Source: Salinibacterium sp. G-O1
GTDB taxonomy: Bacteria; Actinomycetota; Actinomycetes; Actinomycetales; Microbacteriaceae
Assembly: GCF_030063305.1 (NCBI RefSeq)
Contig: NZ_JASISV010000002.1
Span: forward strand, 744,001 to 808,000
Length of the DNA stretch: 64,000 bases
Direction: 5' to 3'
The notes under the pieces are model-generated. The model ran no database searches, had not been told where the DNA came from, and saw nothing but the letters and a program-made list of their open reading frames with translations. Below, in pieces: positions 19,736-25,123 of the stretch; positions within the stretch are counted from its first letter, which is position 1, and each line of letters starts with the position of its first letter. Both the position numbers and the translations under genes were made by a program.

Positions 19736-20077
19736 TCAGACCGCTTTGGCCAGGGCGACGAGCACCTGGTTCACGGTGGGTATGCCCTCAGCCCTGAATA
19801 CCTCGGTGCCGTCGTCCGCAACGACCACCACCGTTGGGGTGACTCTGACGCCAGCCTTCTCGGCCTCGGCCGCATCGCGCACCACGTCAAGCTCGGCAAT
19901 TTTTGCAGCAGGAACGAGCGCCGCTACCTCAAGGAGGACACCGCGCGTCACCATGCACGGCTCACAGAAGTTCGAGGAAAAGAAGAGAAGATTCACCGTA
20001 GCTGGAACGTCGCGGAGGTCGCCGGAATTCCTAAGCGTCGTAGCGCTCTTCGACGGCTTCAATGGGATCACTTTCAT
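19736..20077 (-). CDS. small thioredoxin-like protein
   Basis: Thioredoxin-fold protein with the active-site motif FFSSNFCEPCMVTR and the cis-proline region RVTPTVVVV. It may reduce disulfides in the cytoplasm; no signal peptide is seen. The start is uncertain. ATG 20077 overlaps the upstream gene by 47 bp and has GGGA before it (113 residues). GTG 19996 gives a bare 86-residue domain close to the usual length but has no ribosome site. It follows the 91-residue gene in the same direction and is probably translated from the same mRNA. Confidence 0.82.
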   Translation of the reverse strand: MKVIPLKPSKSATTLRNSGDLRDVPATVNLLFFSSNFCEPCMVTRGVLLEVAALVPAAKIAELDVVRDAAEAEKAGVRVTPTVVVVADDGTEVFRAEGIPTVNQVLVALAKAV

Positions 20078-20306
20078 TCTGGTCCCAGGTGTACGTAACC
20101 TGCACCTGCTCGCCAACGTGCTTTGCGACGGGTGAGATGTATTCCAGCTGGGTCTCCTTGCCATCGAAAGCCGCTATCACCGTAATTGCGGTCTCCCACG
20201 TGCCGTCGGTGCTGATGCGAGTATCGGAGCGTCCGTCGTAGGGTCCACCGGTGTAGAACACGACGTATTCGTCGCCGCGGGTAATTTCTGGAGCTGTGTC
20301 GGTCAT
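20031..20306 (-). CDS. conserved protein of unknown function
   Basis: A 91-residue acidic soluble protein: GDEYVVFYTGGPYDGRSDTR near the N-terminus, then beta-rich sequence (ETAITVIAAFDGKETQLEY) and an acidic end (EAVEERYDA). GAGGG lies close to ATG 20306. I know similar short proteins in Microbacteriaceae but no function. It overlaps or abuts the thioredoxin-like gene, suggesting joint expression. Confidence 0.75.
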   Translation of the reverse strand: MTDTAPEITRGDEYVVFYTGGPYDGRSDTRISTDGTWETAITVIAAFDGKETQLEYISPVAKHVGEQVQVTYTWDQNESDPIEAVEERYDA

Positions 20307-20346: not shown

Positions 20347-21570
20347 CTAGTACGCAACGCTCCGAACGACCACGACTGTGACGTCGTCGGGCTGGGAGCC
20401 ACCGGTCAGCGCCACGAGGTTGTCCACGACCTCCTGGGATGTGCGCGACCTGCGCACGATGCCCTCAACCTCGGTGAGCGCATCGAGAGAGCCGTCGAAG
20501 AGGTCGAGCACGCCGTCACTCAGCAGGATCAGGGTGTCGCCGACATTGAGCTTGACGGAGTGTTCGCTCCACTGCGCCTCAGAATCGACGCCGAGCGGAA
20601 AGTCGTTGGTGGAAAGCCGCTCTGCGGTGCCGTCGCGACGCACAATCACCGAAAGACCGTGGCCGGCATCGACATAGGTAACAACGCCGGTATCCATGTC
20701 GAGGCGAGAATGGAAAAGCGTGACGAACACACCCGACTCGTCCAAATCGGAGTCGAGGATTACTGCGGCACTCTCGACCGATGTAGCGAGTCCTTCATGG
20801 CGCGAACCGGCCCGGAGAACCGCTCTGACCGTGGCAGCGATGATCGCGGCACCGATCCCCTTGCCCATGACGTCGCCGAGCGTGAATACGGCCCCCTCCC
20901 CGACGGGATACCAGTCGAAGAAGTCACCACCGACGGCCTGTGCCGGACGACAATCGCCGGCAACGTCGAAGCCGGGCAGGCTCAACAGTCGTTTAGGAAG
21001 GAGACCGCGCTGCACCTGGGCTGCACGATCGAGCTCGCGGCTGGCATTGAGCTCACCCTGAATCCACCTGGCCACATCTGCGAGGAGCGATTTCTCAGTC
21101 TCGAGAAAAACCCTGGGTCGAGTGTCGAAAAGTCCGACAGCGCCCACTCGTTCCCCGCCAGGACCCATCAGGGCGTGACCCGCCCAGAAGCGTAAGTGTG
21201 GCTCACCCCAGACGTATGGGTGACCATCGAAACGGGGATCCGCCTGGGTATCGCGCACAGTGACGGTTCCTGCGCCGCTAGCGTCGATGATCTCCATGAA
21301 GGAATCCTTGCGCGCGACCTCGGTGCGAACGACGCCCGAACTGGCCTTCACCCATTCGCGTTCCCCCTCGAGGATCGAAATCGCAGCTGAGCGCACGCCG
21401 AAAAATTGCTGCATCAAGCGAGAAACGATATCGAGGCGACTCGTCAGCGGATCGTCGTCAACGACTACGACCGTGTCCATTTCCTCTGCGCGCTTCCGCG
21501 ATACCTCGTCGATAACTTCCAGAATCGACGGTCTGCCCGACCGCCCAGCGGTCTCTCGCCCGTAGATCAT
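20347..21570 (-). CDS. GAF-PP2C (SpoIIE/RsbU-type) protein phosphatase
   Basis: A 407-residue cytoplasmic phosphatase. A GAF-type sensor domain spans about residues 25-180 (RLMQQFFGVRSAAISILEGE, PHLRFWAGHALMGPGGERVG) and a PP2C-like domain about 195-405 with metal-binding motifs AVGGDFFDWYPV, LGDVMGKGIGAA and PDDVTVVVV. Enzymes of this class dephosphorylate a STAS anti-anti-sigma protein and so switch on the partner. It overlaps the RsbW-like gene by 4 bp (ATGA) and ends the operon glycosyltransferase-STAS-kinase-phosphatase. The GAF domain implies an input signal, unknown here. Confidence 0.92.
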   Translation of the reverse strand: MIYGRETAGRSGRPSILEVIDEVSRKRAEEMDTVVVVDDDPLTSRLDIVSRLMQQFFGVRSAAISILEGEREWVKASSGVVRTEVARKDSFMEIIDASGAGTVTVRDTQADPRFDGHPYVWGEPHLRFWAGHALMGPGGERVGAVGLFDTRPRVFLETEKSLLADVARWIQGELNASRELDRAAQVQRGLLPKRLLSLPGFDVAGDCRPAQAVGGDFFDWYPVGEGAVFTLGDVMGKGIGAAIIAATVRAVLRAGSRHEGLATSVESAAVILDSDLDESGVFVTLFHSRLDMDTGVVTYVDAGHGLSVIVRRDGTAERLSTNDFPLGVDSEAQWSEHSVKLNVGDTLILLSDGVLDLFDGSLDALTEVEGIVRRSRTSQEVVDNLVALTGGSQPDDVTVVVVRSVAY

Positions 21571-22010
21571 GAACGTAGATTCCTCGAGATTTTCCAGCGA
21601 TTAACCAGACCCACCCTGTCGTAATGGAACTCGTCGACCAACGCCCGGATGATCGGAAGACCTCTGCCGGACTCGCAGAGACCGTCCGGCATCTCGGTGT
21701 TATCGAGGTCGAGGTCTCCGCCCGGCTGCCCGGAGTCACGGAGTTCGGCGTCAATGCGGTCGGGGGCGATCGTCACGGTAAGGCTGCAGGAGATTCCGAG
21801 GCCTGCATCGGCGTGAGCTATGACATTCGCCGCAAGTTCGACCAGGGCCGTTTCGAAGCTGAAACGGTCAATCATCTCGACGTTCGGCGCAGTGGCCCAG
21901 ACATCCTGCATCAGGTCCTGAACGGTGTTTATGTCGTCGGGCGGCGACGACAAATCCATGCGATGCGTGGTGACCTCAACCACGGGGAAAGGCTGCGTCA
22001 ATGTCGGCAT
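21567..22010 (-). CDS. RsbW-like anti-sigma/serine kinase (HATPase)
   Basis: A GHKL ATPase of the RsbW/SpoIIAB class. The N box reads ALVELAANVIAHA, followed by DAELRDSGQPGGD and GRGLPIIRALVDEF. Such kinases phosphorylate the STAS partner on Ser and hold a target protein when the STAS protein is phosphorylated. The start is ambiguous: ATG 22010 is used here, GTG 22025 and ATG 21959 are possible, and the first two overlap the STAS gene end. It sits between the STAS and phosphatase genes with tight overlaps. No sigma factor gene is nearby, so its target is open. Confidence 0.9.
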   Translation of the reverse strand: MPTLTQPFPVVEVTTHRMDLSSPPDDINTVQDLMQDVWATAPNVEMIDRFSFETALVELAANVIAHADAGLGISCSLTVTIAPDRIDAELRDSGQPGGDLDLDNTEMPDGLCESGRGLPIIRALVDEFHYDRVGLVNRWKISRNLRS

Positions 22011-22311
22011 ATTCGGCGAGAACACGATCCATGTTGGTGAGCTTCAGCACGAGCTGAACCTGCTCAGTCGGTGCCACCAGCCGCAGGTCTCCACCTGACT
22101 GGCGTGCAGTCTTCAGCCCAGAAATGAGAGCGCCGAGCCCCGACGAGTCGAGGAACGTCACTGAACTCAGGTCGACGGCTACCCGCGTGCTTCCGTCAGC
22201 TACCGCCGCCGCGACAACCTCGCGGAAACGCATCGCCGTCACCATGTTCAATCGGCCCGCGACGCTGAGAACGGCGACGCCGTCCCCGTGATCCGAGAGG
22301 GTGTATTCCAT
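21976..22311 (-). CDS. STAS-domain anti-anti-sigma factor (RsbV/SpoIIAA-like)
   Basis: A 111-residue single STAS domain. The conserved phosphorylation loop is VTFLDSSGLGALISGL; the Ser of DSSG is the expected target of the RsbW-like kinase and of the PP2C phosphatase. ATG 22311 overlaps the stop of the glycosyltransferase gene (TAATG), so translation is coupled to the enzyme. Unphosphorylated STAS proteins usually bind the kinase and free its other client. Here the client may be the glycosyltransferase or an unlinked sigma factor; this cannot be settled from the sequence. Confidence 0.93.
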   Translation of the reverse strand: MEYTLSDHGDGVAVLSVAGRLNMVTAMRFREVVAAAVADGSTRVAVDLSSVTFLDSSGLGALISGLKTARQSGGDLRLVAPTEQVQLVLKLTNMDRVLAEYADIDAAFPRG

Positions 22312-24302
22312 TAGTTGCCTTCCTTGCCCGCAAAGCCGCGATAGCGAACCGCCGGGATGATCACGCTGAGAATGACGATGTCGTAGACCACCCACGCGAG
22401 ATTGACAATAGTGCCGACAGGCTCACCATCCCCGGTGATCAACCGCGTGATTCCGATAATCGAGGCGATGATGAGGACAACTCCGACTATCAGCTGGTAA
22501 CGCACGAGACGCCACTGGCTCCCCGTCTCGTTCTTGGTCTTAGAGGTGACCACGAATCCGAGCGGGCGCCCGAAGAAAACGTTCGCAGCGGCCGTCGTCG
22601 TCGCCGCGATCCAGATCGGGAATAGGGCGAGGCTGTACTGCTGGCCCCTCCACGTCGACATGCCTCGACTTGAGAACAAGAAGAGCATCTGGTTGATGAC
22701 GAGGAACGGGATGAAATGGTAGAAGAAATCTTCAGCCATCGTCGTCACGGGCAACACTCCGAATACGAGGAAGATCACGGGAGCGGCGAAGTAGATGATT
22801 GCCGCGTAGCCGGTGAGATACGTCCACATCGTGCTGAAGTACATGAGCCGCTGCGCGATTGAGAGGCCCTTCTGCACGAGCGGGTTCTCGCGAATGAGCA
22901 CCTGCATCGTGCCCTGCGCCCAGCGCAGACGCTGGGTGAGCGACGTACCGAGGTCTTCGGGCGCGAGCCCCCACACGAGAGTCTCGTGGTGGTAAATGCT
23001 TTTCCAACCGAGGCCGTGGAGACGCATCGAGGTGGCCATGTCTTCGGTCACCGAGATCGTCGCCAGGGGCATGAGGGGCTGCGCCTCGTCGTCGCGGTCG
23101 ACATCGATCGACCGGATGAGTGCCTGAATCGACTCGAGTGCACCGAGGGGGGTGAGATCACGCGATGCCAGCGACTGAACCGCGGCGTCGATGTCGCTAA
23201 ACGCTCCCCAGTCCCCGTCGTCGTCACCCTGCAATTCGCGAATGGCGTCGAGGTCCCGCGCGAGCTCGTCAAGGTCGTACGAAACGACGCTGCGGGACGC
23301 GATGTCGACGCGTCGTTGCAGGTTGTAGGTGACAGTTCCGATCGGCGCGCGCCCGGCGATCGCCGTTCGCGCTTCCGCGACCGCGGACGCCACTCCGGCG
23401 AGAGCCTGCTGCGTGGCCGGATGTGCGGCATCCGCCGACCGCCTGGCTTTGCGGATGACGCGATCCGCACCCCTGAGTGCCACGGAGACCGAATGCTCGA
23501 GCTCGGTCACATAGCGTGTCACGCCGAGCATCATGAGTGCCTCACGGCGAAGCAGGGCATTTGACCCGCAGAAAAAGGCGGCGTTCCAGCCGTCCTTGCC
23601 CTGCTGCAGCGGCCCGTAGAAGAGCGGCGCGTGGCTGCCGAGCGGGTCATGTGCCGGCACATTCCAAAATTCCTGAGGAGTCTGCACGAGCGCAACTTGC
23701 TCGTCATTGAAGTGGCCGAGTGTGCGGTCGAGGATGTGCTTGCTAGGCACCTGGTCGGCGTCGAGGATGAGCATGAACTCCCCTCCCGTGGCCATGAGCG
23801 CGTTGTTGAGATTGCCCGCCTTGGCGTGCCTGGGGCGATTGCGCCACGATTCACCACGGGTGATGTAGCCGACACCGATCTCGTCAGCCACCGCCCGCAT
23901 CTCATCGCGCGCCCCGTCGTCCAGAATCCAGGTCAAGTGGGGGTACGTGATATCGCGCGCCGCGATTGCGGTGCCCCTGACGAGCTCGATGTCCTCGTTG
24001 TATGTCGTAATGAACACGTCGACGGTCAGGCCGGCTGGTGCTTCTGGCGATTGCGGGCGCGTGCGCGCACGCCACATGGTCAGGCCGAAGAGAGAGACAT
24101 CTATCAGGCTGTAGGTCTCGGCGGCGACCAGGGGAATCGCGATCCACCACGCGTCAAAGTTCAGCGAGAACGTCCAACGCCACAGGATGTAGTTGAGCCC
24201 CGCAGCGATCGTCAGGACCACGAGAATGCGCAGCATGAGCAATCTGCCCGAGCGCTCAAGCACGCCCGAGCGCACAGCACGTACGCTGTCGATGATCGCC
24301 AC
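22311..24302 (-). CDS. membrane glycosyltransferase, BcsA/cellulose-synthase type, with internal insertion
   Basis: A 663-residue processive family-2 glycosyltransferase. Two membrane segments (about 22-44 and 52-75) precede the catalytic domain, with about five more after it. Catalytic motifs are LDDG (128-129), DAD (181-183), VTED (421) and QRLRW (457-461), the D,D,D,QxxRW set of cellulose and hyaluronan synthases. About 150 residues (roughly 262-412), Ala/Arg/Asp-rich and mostly predicted helical, are inserted between FFCGSNALLRR and the TED motif, normally close together. The chain ends after the last membrane segment, so no PilZ c-di-GMP domain is present. GGGGGGA precedes GTG 24302. It probably exports a beta-linked polysaccharide; the sugar is unknown. 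Confidence 0.93.
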   Translation of the reverse strand: MAIIDSVRAVRSGVLERSGRLLMLRILVVLTIAAGLNYILWRWTFSLNFDAWWIAIPLVAAETYSLIDVSLFGLTMWRARTRPQSPEAPAGLTVDVFITTYNEDIELVRGTAIAARDITYPHLTWILDDGARDEMRAVADEIGVGYITRGESWRNRPRHAKAGNLNNALMATGGEFMLILDADQVPSKHILDRTLGHFNDEQVALVQTPQEFWNVPAHDPLGSHAPLFYGPLQQGKDGWNAAFFCGSNALLRREALMMLGVTRYVTELEHSVSVALRGADRVIRKARRSADAAHPATQQALAGVASAVAEARTAIAGRAPIGTVTYNLQRRVDIASRSVVSYDLDELARDLDAIRELQGDDDGDWGAFSDIDAAVQSLASRDLTPLGALESIQALIRSIDVDRDDEAQPLMPLATISVTEDMATSMRLHGLGWKSIYHHETLVWGLAPEDLGTSLTQRLRWAQGTMQVLIRENPLVQKGLSIAQRLMYFSTMWTYLTGYAAIIYFAAPVIFLVFGVLPVTTMAEDFFYHFIPFLVINQMLFLFSSRGMSTWRGQQYSLALFPIWIAATTTAAANVFFGRPLGFVVTSKTKNETGSQWRLVRYQLIVGVVLIIASIIGITRLITGDGEPVGTIVNLAWVVYDIVILSVIIPAVRYRGFAGKEGN

Positions 24303-24502: not shown

Positions 24503-25123
24503 ATGGCTTCCAACGCTGACCTTTTGGTCTGGATCGACTGCGAAATGACCGGGCTCGACATCACCGTCGACGAACTGGTGGAGGTAGCAGTGGTGATCAC
24601 TAATTACGATCTCGTGCCGCTCGACCCTGGATTCTCCATTGTCATCAAGCCCGACCAGACGGCGCTCGACAACATGGGCGAGTTTGTTCGCAACATGCAC
24701 ACCGAGAGCGGGCTTATCAACGAGATCGGCCAAGGAGTTTCCCTCGCAGATGCCGAGTATGCCGTGAACGAATACATCCTGAAGTTCGTTCCGCTGCCGA
24801 GCAGTGCTCCGCTTGCGGGAAACACGATTGGCACCGACCGCGCCTTCCTCGCCAAATACATGCCGCGCGTCGACAGCCACCTGCACTATCGAAGCGTCGA
24901 CGTCTCGTCGATCAAGGAGTTGTCTCGTCGCTGGTTCCCCCGCGTGTACTTCAACGCTCCCTCCAAAGACGGCGGGCACCGGGCGCTTGCCGACATCCGT
25001 GAGTCGATCCGGGAACTCGACTACTACCGCAAGGCCGTTTTTGTGCAGGAGCCCGGGCCAACTACTGACCAGGTGCAGGCAATCTCGGCTGAGGTCGTGC
25101 AGGAATTCGCTCAGCGTCTCTAG
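24503..25123 (+). CDS. orn: oligoribonuclease
   Basis: A 206-residue DEDDh 3'-5' exoribonuclease that degrades dinucleotides (including pGpG) to mononucleotides and is needed for RNA turnover. Catalytic motifs are [11 protein letters not shown] (DxE), [15 protein letters not shown] and [11 protein letters not shown] (HxxxxD). Length is slightly above the usual 180 because of a short C-terminal tail. It appears to be transcribed alone from a leaderless promoter, upstream of tRNA-His. Confidence 0.96.

Follow-up and report, generated by a model that had tools for sequence, protein, structure and literature searches.

In Vibrio fischeri, the phospho-serine STAS protein SypA controls a biofilm polysaccharide and is active in its unphosphorylated form (available portion of PMC8256260), and SypE has kinase and phosphatase activity in one protein (available portions of PMC8256260 and PMC4517449). 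In Nostoc punctiforme, a phosphatase (HmpU), a kinase (HmpW), and a STAS protein (HmpV) are separate products of a hormogonium motility and polysaccharide locus (available portion of PMC8256260), and a sigma cascade is described in hormogonia (available portion of PMC6495340). The same portion of PMC8256260 gives the direct target as unknown for both SypA and HmpV. We describe here a switch of this type in a 64,000-nucleotide stretch of the Salinibacterium sp. G-O1 genome (contig NZ_JASISV010000002.1, positions 744,001 to 808,000; hereafter the window), where a STAS protein, an RsbW-like kinase, and a GAF-PP2C phosphatase are encoded in one operon with a BcsA-like glycosyltransferase (GT). Judging from sequence comparisons, we consider it probable that partner switching gates this synthase post-translationally.

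The operon occupies positions 24302 to 20347 of the minus strand in the order GT, STAS, RsbW, PP2C, with every gene overlapping its successor (Table 1). The TAA stop of the GT and the ATG start of STAS have one base in common (TAATG), RsbW and PP2C are joined by an ATGA overlap, and RsbW, if it begins at its most likely start (GTG at 21983), overlaps the end of STAS, stop codon included, by 8 nt. The latter overlap is also found in 59 of 74 relatives' RsbW genes located behind STAS, as read from script-chosen starts. The initial annotation had claimed the four genes, their positions, and the TAATG and ATGA overlaps, all of which are confirmed by open reading frames (ORFs) and Pfam. It was also right that the operon contains no sigma factor gene and that the STAS/RsbW/PP2C set is complete: each family is matched by Pfam and the expected active-site residues are present.

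This arrangement resembles SypE/SypA in that a STAS switch with a phospho-serine is tied to polysaccharide; in contrast to SypE, RsbW and the GAF-PP2C protein are separate genes rather than a single response-regulator protein, and a candidate target is part of the same operon. The three separate switch proteins recall HmpU/HmpW/HmpV, which differ in being encoded at a cyanobacterial locus, for which the cited portion of PMC8256260 gives no tie to a BcsA-type synthase; hormogonia also have the sigma cascade mentioned above. The Bacillus systems RsbV/RsbW/RsbU and SpoIIAA/SpoIIAB/SpoIIE are built from these protein families too and presumably share the phospho-chemistry, but no SigB/F/G-type factor was found in either the window operon or the host genome.

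Table 1. Features of the operon (window positions).
Feature	Position	Strand	Basis and remarks
BcsA-like membrane synthase of the processive GT2 type (663 aa)	22311..24302	-	Pfam, motifs; no PilZ
Insertion in GT catalytic domain, about 150 aa (about residues 261-412)	23067..23534	-	Alignment, model
Single-domain STAS, SpoIIAA/RsbV-like, 111 aa	21976..22311	-	Presumed phospho-acceptor Ser56 at 22146-22144
RsbW/SpoIIAB-like serine kinase (predicted)	21567..21983	-	GTG start; longer start at 22025 possible
GAF-SpoIIE (PP2C) phosphatase (predicted), 407 aa	20347..21570	-	ATGA overlap with RsbW

The nearest solved relative of the GT is BcsA, both by sequence (234 bits) and by fold (Foldseek, 6.6e-25). 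The protein matches Pfam Cellulose_synt (82.7 bits) and GT2 families, and it has all of the motifs that we take to be the DDG, DAD, TED, QRLRW, and FVVTSK motifs of such enzymes; as in BcsA, the GT2 core lies in a protein with membrane helices. The enzyme probably synthesizes a surface sugar polymer. In contrast to BcsA, it carries an insertion, lacks PilZ, and falls below the CelA equivalog cut-off (TIGR03030; 350 vs. 699 bits). When aligned with E. coli BcsA, residues 18-260 and 413-648 match adjoining stretches of that protein, leaving between them a 152-residue insertion that is absent from E. coli BcsA and is located between the FFCGS region and the TED motif; the GT terminates ahead of the PilZ part. 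In the predicted structure (mean pLDDT 69.9), the insertion is largely helical and includes long helices, with pLDDT values per ten-residue block of 63-88 for residues 261-350 and 44-62 for residues 351-410. Its assignment to a known domain was rejected, as no convincing Pfam or PDB match was obtained: the scattered weak matches include TraB_PrgY_gumN, seen in 7 of the 26 members with a best value of 3e-4.

BcsA is gated by its PilZ domain with cyclic di-GMP (c-di-GMP). PilZ was found in none of the 26 insertion-type GTs, a set that includes the window protein; together with the alignment, this upholds the initial annotation's view that PilZ is missing. A search of the host genome for GGDEF returned one protein only (G000:C3:260212-260685), so that c-di-GMP signalling looks minimal in this organism. 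In a survey of the phylum, 21 of 396 genomes had a GT match at E 1e-40: the host itself, genome G462, and 19 others with 20 places, 19 of which were examined (some end at contig ends). G462 has the only insertion-type GT besides that of the window, in the order PP2C-GT-STAS-RsbW. In the other genomes, the insertion is missing from 19/19 BcsA relatives and PilZ is detected at E 0.001 in 13 of them; the single module-type match at these places is a 66-bit STAS on the opposite strand, at a distance of approximately 2.8 kb. In the phylum sample, the insertion with its switch was never seen alongside PilZ.

Among 84,980 species genomes scanned, 386 GT relatives were detected and the 80 best retained; the counts that follow therefore describe the closest of these relatives. 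Because the first scoring of loci dropped GT frames shorter than 500 aa and frames leaving the contig, the seven affected loci were rechecked, and because a crude ORF chooser gave shadow ORFs among the neighbours, only genes confirmed by a hidden Markov model or by Pfam were used. By script, STAS, RsbW, and PP2C genes were all placed no more than 6 kb from the GT start in 73 of the 80 loci, in several gene orders. Two further loci have all four genes, the last one cut by the contig end (L032 and L064), and another has the GT and PP2C followed by the contig end (L102). The order PP2C-GT-STAS-RsbW is seen in 40/80 loci, and a further 13 show it together with an additional match on the opposite strand, which in some cases covers the GAF part only; the window's order occurs in 7/80 and GT-PP2C-STAS-RsbW in 2/80, and in L035 and L089 the switch genes are on the strand opposite the GT. 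In 73 loci, STAS follows the GT within 1.5 kb on that gene's strand, and with script-chosen starts it overlaps the GT stop in 67 of these. Conservation of gene order had been set beforehand as a test of the initial proposal: although the order itself shuffles, the association is kept in 73/80 loci, so that in substance the proposal is not refuted on this count. That membership is kept although the order changes argues for function, not mere inheritance of a stretch of DNA.

The association was then surveyed in 249 genomes of the window's family (GT at E 1e-60, module-type STAS at E 1e-12), where merging of two-piece GT matches reduced 48 rows to 43 GT places. The GT was found in 42 genomes and STAS in 55, with both in 37 (Fisher test, 4e-25, not corrected for kinship). 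Every GT place (43/43) has an adjoining switch protein: canonical STAS directly behind the GT in 34, degenerate STAS behind or fused to it in five, PP2C-STAS-RsbW upstream of the GT in one (L128), and RsbW directly behind the GT in three close relatives (L129-L131) that have no STAS there and a STAS-RsbW pair elsewhere in the genome. Taken together, the conserved loci and this survey led us to reject chance adjacency of GT and switch genes. The other four sampled genomes of the host genus have neither GT nor STAS, indicating that the module is patchy.

The five degenerate STAS domains come from two genera in which STAS is kept with the GT though RsbW and a full SpoIIE phosphatase were not found. 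G133 and G186 encode the domain as a C-terminal fusion with the GT (796 and 791 aa), and in G222, G118, and G173 it is the gene next after the GT. All five match Pfam STAS (23.0 to 33.7; cut-off 22.6) and all five have lost the DSSG phospho-serine motif. No RsbW match was obtained at E 1e-4 in any of these genomes; SpoIIE matches are partial in all five, covering the C-terminal part only, with one each in G222 and G173 at about the cut-off. The insertion is shorter and diverged. In a GT tree, the insertion-type GTs form one clade (100/99), in which this five-genome group is sister to the rest with moderate support (90/88). STAS is thus the partner common to both sides of the insertion-type split, and contact with the synthase would be the simplest reason why it stays without its kinase in the sister clade. 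Anabaena all4160 is likewise a glycosyltransferase with STAS in one chain, N-terminally in that case (available portion of PMC8256260); the sister-clade fusions differ from it in phylum and domain order, as they carry STAS at the C-terminus.

The window's switch proteins retain the residues expected of active members of their families. STAS (Pfam STAS, 64.2 bits) keeps DSSG, RsbW keeps the N-box E/N, the G1-box Asp, and the G2-box GRG, and PP2C keeps its Asp residues; we assume for all of these the roles in activity usual for their families, and Ser56 was picked as the phospho-acceptor on the understanding that the first serine of the motif is the one modified. DSSGLG is invariant in the 76 canonical STAS rows. 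RsbW matches HATPase_c_2 at 49.5 bits (cut-off 27.4), and its predicted structure (pLDDT 88.6) has Leptospira LvrC, SpoIIAB, and RsbW as top Foldseek matches. PP2C matches SpoIIE at 116.4 bits; its GAF part is below the Pfam cut-off (20.6 vs. 28.6), but a profile built from PP2C relatives aligns with the solved chain 4zmu at profile positions 9-164 (1.8e-35), a part that we take to be a GAF domain. The host genome has 12 HATPase_c_2 matches (one RsbW-sized frame among them), three STAS matches (one free-standing), and two SpoIIE matches (one full domain). RsbW-PP2C fusions of about 535 aa occur in Microcella putealis (L029:6290-7906) and in three genomes of one genus (L120:6532, L137:4269, and L142:4509); a synthase is nearby in L029 and L142, and not in L120 and L137.

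Under the proposed mechanism, GAF-PP2C would sense a signal and dephosphorylate STAS at Ser56, the residue that RsbW would phosphorylate. Unphosphorylated STAS would set the synthase ON, most likely by direct contact on the cytosolic side, thereby taking the part played by PilZ and c-di-GMP in BcsA. The helical insertion is a likely docking surface, and RsbW may compete for STAS and possibly also for the insertion. Direct contact, the docking site of each partner, and the sign of control are what we infer here. A more specific version, which we regard as possible but tentative, puts the synthase where partner switching normally has a sigma factor: RsbW would be an anti-synthase that holds the insertion, and unphosphorylated STAS would either release this hold or bind the synthase itself, the switch having replaced c-di-GMP/PilZ control in one actinobacterial lineage. 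Three observations hint that RsbW docks on the insertion: the GT-RsbW neighbours in L129-L131, the divergence of the insertion in genomes without an RsbW match, and a mirror-tree signal in one clade. For the mirror-tree comparison, rows were dropped if a gene was missing, if RsbW was a fusion exceeding 250 aa, or if cores were near-identical. The partial correlation between insertion and RsbW was 0.41 over 48 thinned rows, as against 0.46 for the STAS-RsbW positive control (48 rows); a fast-site control gave 0.27, which weakens the link. The only clean set is Micrococcaceae-like (44 rows), with 0.59 for insertion-RsbW and -0.13 for the PP2C control.

Several observations weigh against gating of the synthase by the switch. 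In the window's own group (18 rows), the insertion-RsbW correlation is 0.21 (p=0.095), under the fast-site control of 0.32. Two loci have STAS and RsbW with PP2C not in the fetched DNA (L025 and L083), and two have an insertion-type GT with neither STAS nor RsbW in the fetched DNA (L034 and L095; in L034, the GAF part alone is matched about 6 kb from the GT). As 6 of the 19 insertion-free GTs are without PilZ at E 0.001, this domain is not universal in them. RsbW is without the G1-box Asp in 57/76 rows, mainly from Arthrobacter-type loci (within L033-L101), so that kinase activity is not assured there, although the N- and G2-box residues are invariant. The SpoIIAB/RsbW fold of the kinase also suits canonical transcription control, in which RsbW would sequester an unlinked sigma factor (RpoD or ECF, extracytoplasmic function) and the GT would merely be co-transcribed; a title cited in PMC8256260 places the primary sigma factor of Chlamydia under Rsb control. 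A SigBFG match at E 1e-45 is present in 30 of the 249 family genomes (two of them above the curated cut-off) and is enriched with the GT (14/42 vs. 16/207, p=4e-5, not corrected for kinship), which further counts against our reading and may mark more versatile genomes. No such match was found in the other 28 of the 42 GT genomes, however, and the host has no SigB/F/G-type factor: its best TIGR02980 match, a 448-aa RpoD-like frame, scores 129.8 bits against a cut-off of 234, and the other is a partial match to an ECF-like frame (36.8 bits). RsbW may still bind RpoD or an ECF factor; the host has 13 region-4 matches, one of which was read. Moreover, the five genomes with no RsbW match still have STAS fused to the GT or right behind it, and we consider transcription control quite unlikely.

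A further unfavourable point is that STAS-RsbW-PP2C triplets occur in 12 family genomes in which no GT was found at E 1e-60, one of which (G039) is only 83% complete. In addition, 36 of the 73 STAS places in the family lie over 6 kb away from any GT; among the 25 of these examined, 16 have RsbW and PP2C, three have RsbW only, one has a weak PP2C, and five have nothing. The switch is not tied to this synthase everywhere: either it has further outputs, or such genomes have lost the synthase or it escaped detection. The three proteins might accordingly be a general module with another, non-sigma target, the linkage to the GT reflecting co-expression and not direct control. This is unlikely in our view, given that the STAS start overlaps the GT stop in 67/73 loci, that STAS and GT are fused in two genomes, and that the insertion and the linked switch coincide in one GT clade of the sample. 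The persistence of a degenerate STAS without DSSG, fused to or behind the GT in five genomes, could instead mean that STAS acts as a subunit supporting the structure or folding of the synthase, with phosphorylation of minor weight, but the invariance of DSSGLG in 76/76 canonical rows and the retention of RsbW and PP2C in 73/80 loci make this very improbable. The initial annotation's proposal that the switch may act on the synthase and so replace PilZ control is partly supported: it is strengthened by the PilZ counts (0/26 vs. 13/19), the two C-terminal fusions, and the lack of a host SigB/F/G factor; the triplets in genomes with no detected GT mean that exclusive dedication of the switch to the synthase is not established. 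These triplets are those of L108, L109, L114, L115, L117-L120, L122-L124, and L137.

On the GT side, the window operon is flanked by a divergent gene at 24503, presumably oligoribonuclease-like from its translation; its other flank carries a small gene that matches no Pfam family (20031-20306) and one that is thioredoxin-like (19736-20164). Neither BcsB nor BcsZ was seen among the genes adjoining the operon, and neither GH26 nor OpgC adjoins it; the host genome was not searched for any of these four. Among the relatives, one cluster of neighbour ORFs comprises 24 ORFs in 15/81 loci, and the six scanned are four GH26 and two OpgC proteins. GH26 genes adjoin the GT in L132 and L134, the loci of the two GT-STAS fusions, and an OpgC acyltransferase frame follows RsbW in L129 and L131. 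Such neighbours suggest an acylated, trimmed exopolysaccharide. Overall, GH26 hydrolases or long OpgC-type frames (829-963 aa) are found near the GT in L031, L034, L074, L089, L095, L129, L131, L132, and L134.

Searches confined to open-licence PMC papers turned up none whose title and abstract connect a STAS switch with a BcsA-type synthase, and the combination of 'STAS domain' and 'BcsA' returned 0. For polysaccharide STAS switches such as SypA and HmpV, whose direct target is the missing element in the available portion of PMC8256260, the conserved overlapping module of Microbacteriaceae and Arthrobacter-type bacteria offers a candidate: the synthase itself, with natural fusions as evidence. 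The compact four-gene unit can be tested in a foreign host. If the proposal holds, partner switching is able to act directly as the gate of an enzyme and to take over from PilZ/c-di-GMP control in the cellulose-synthase family.

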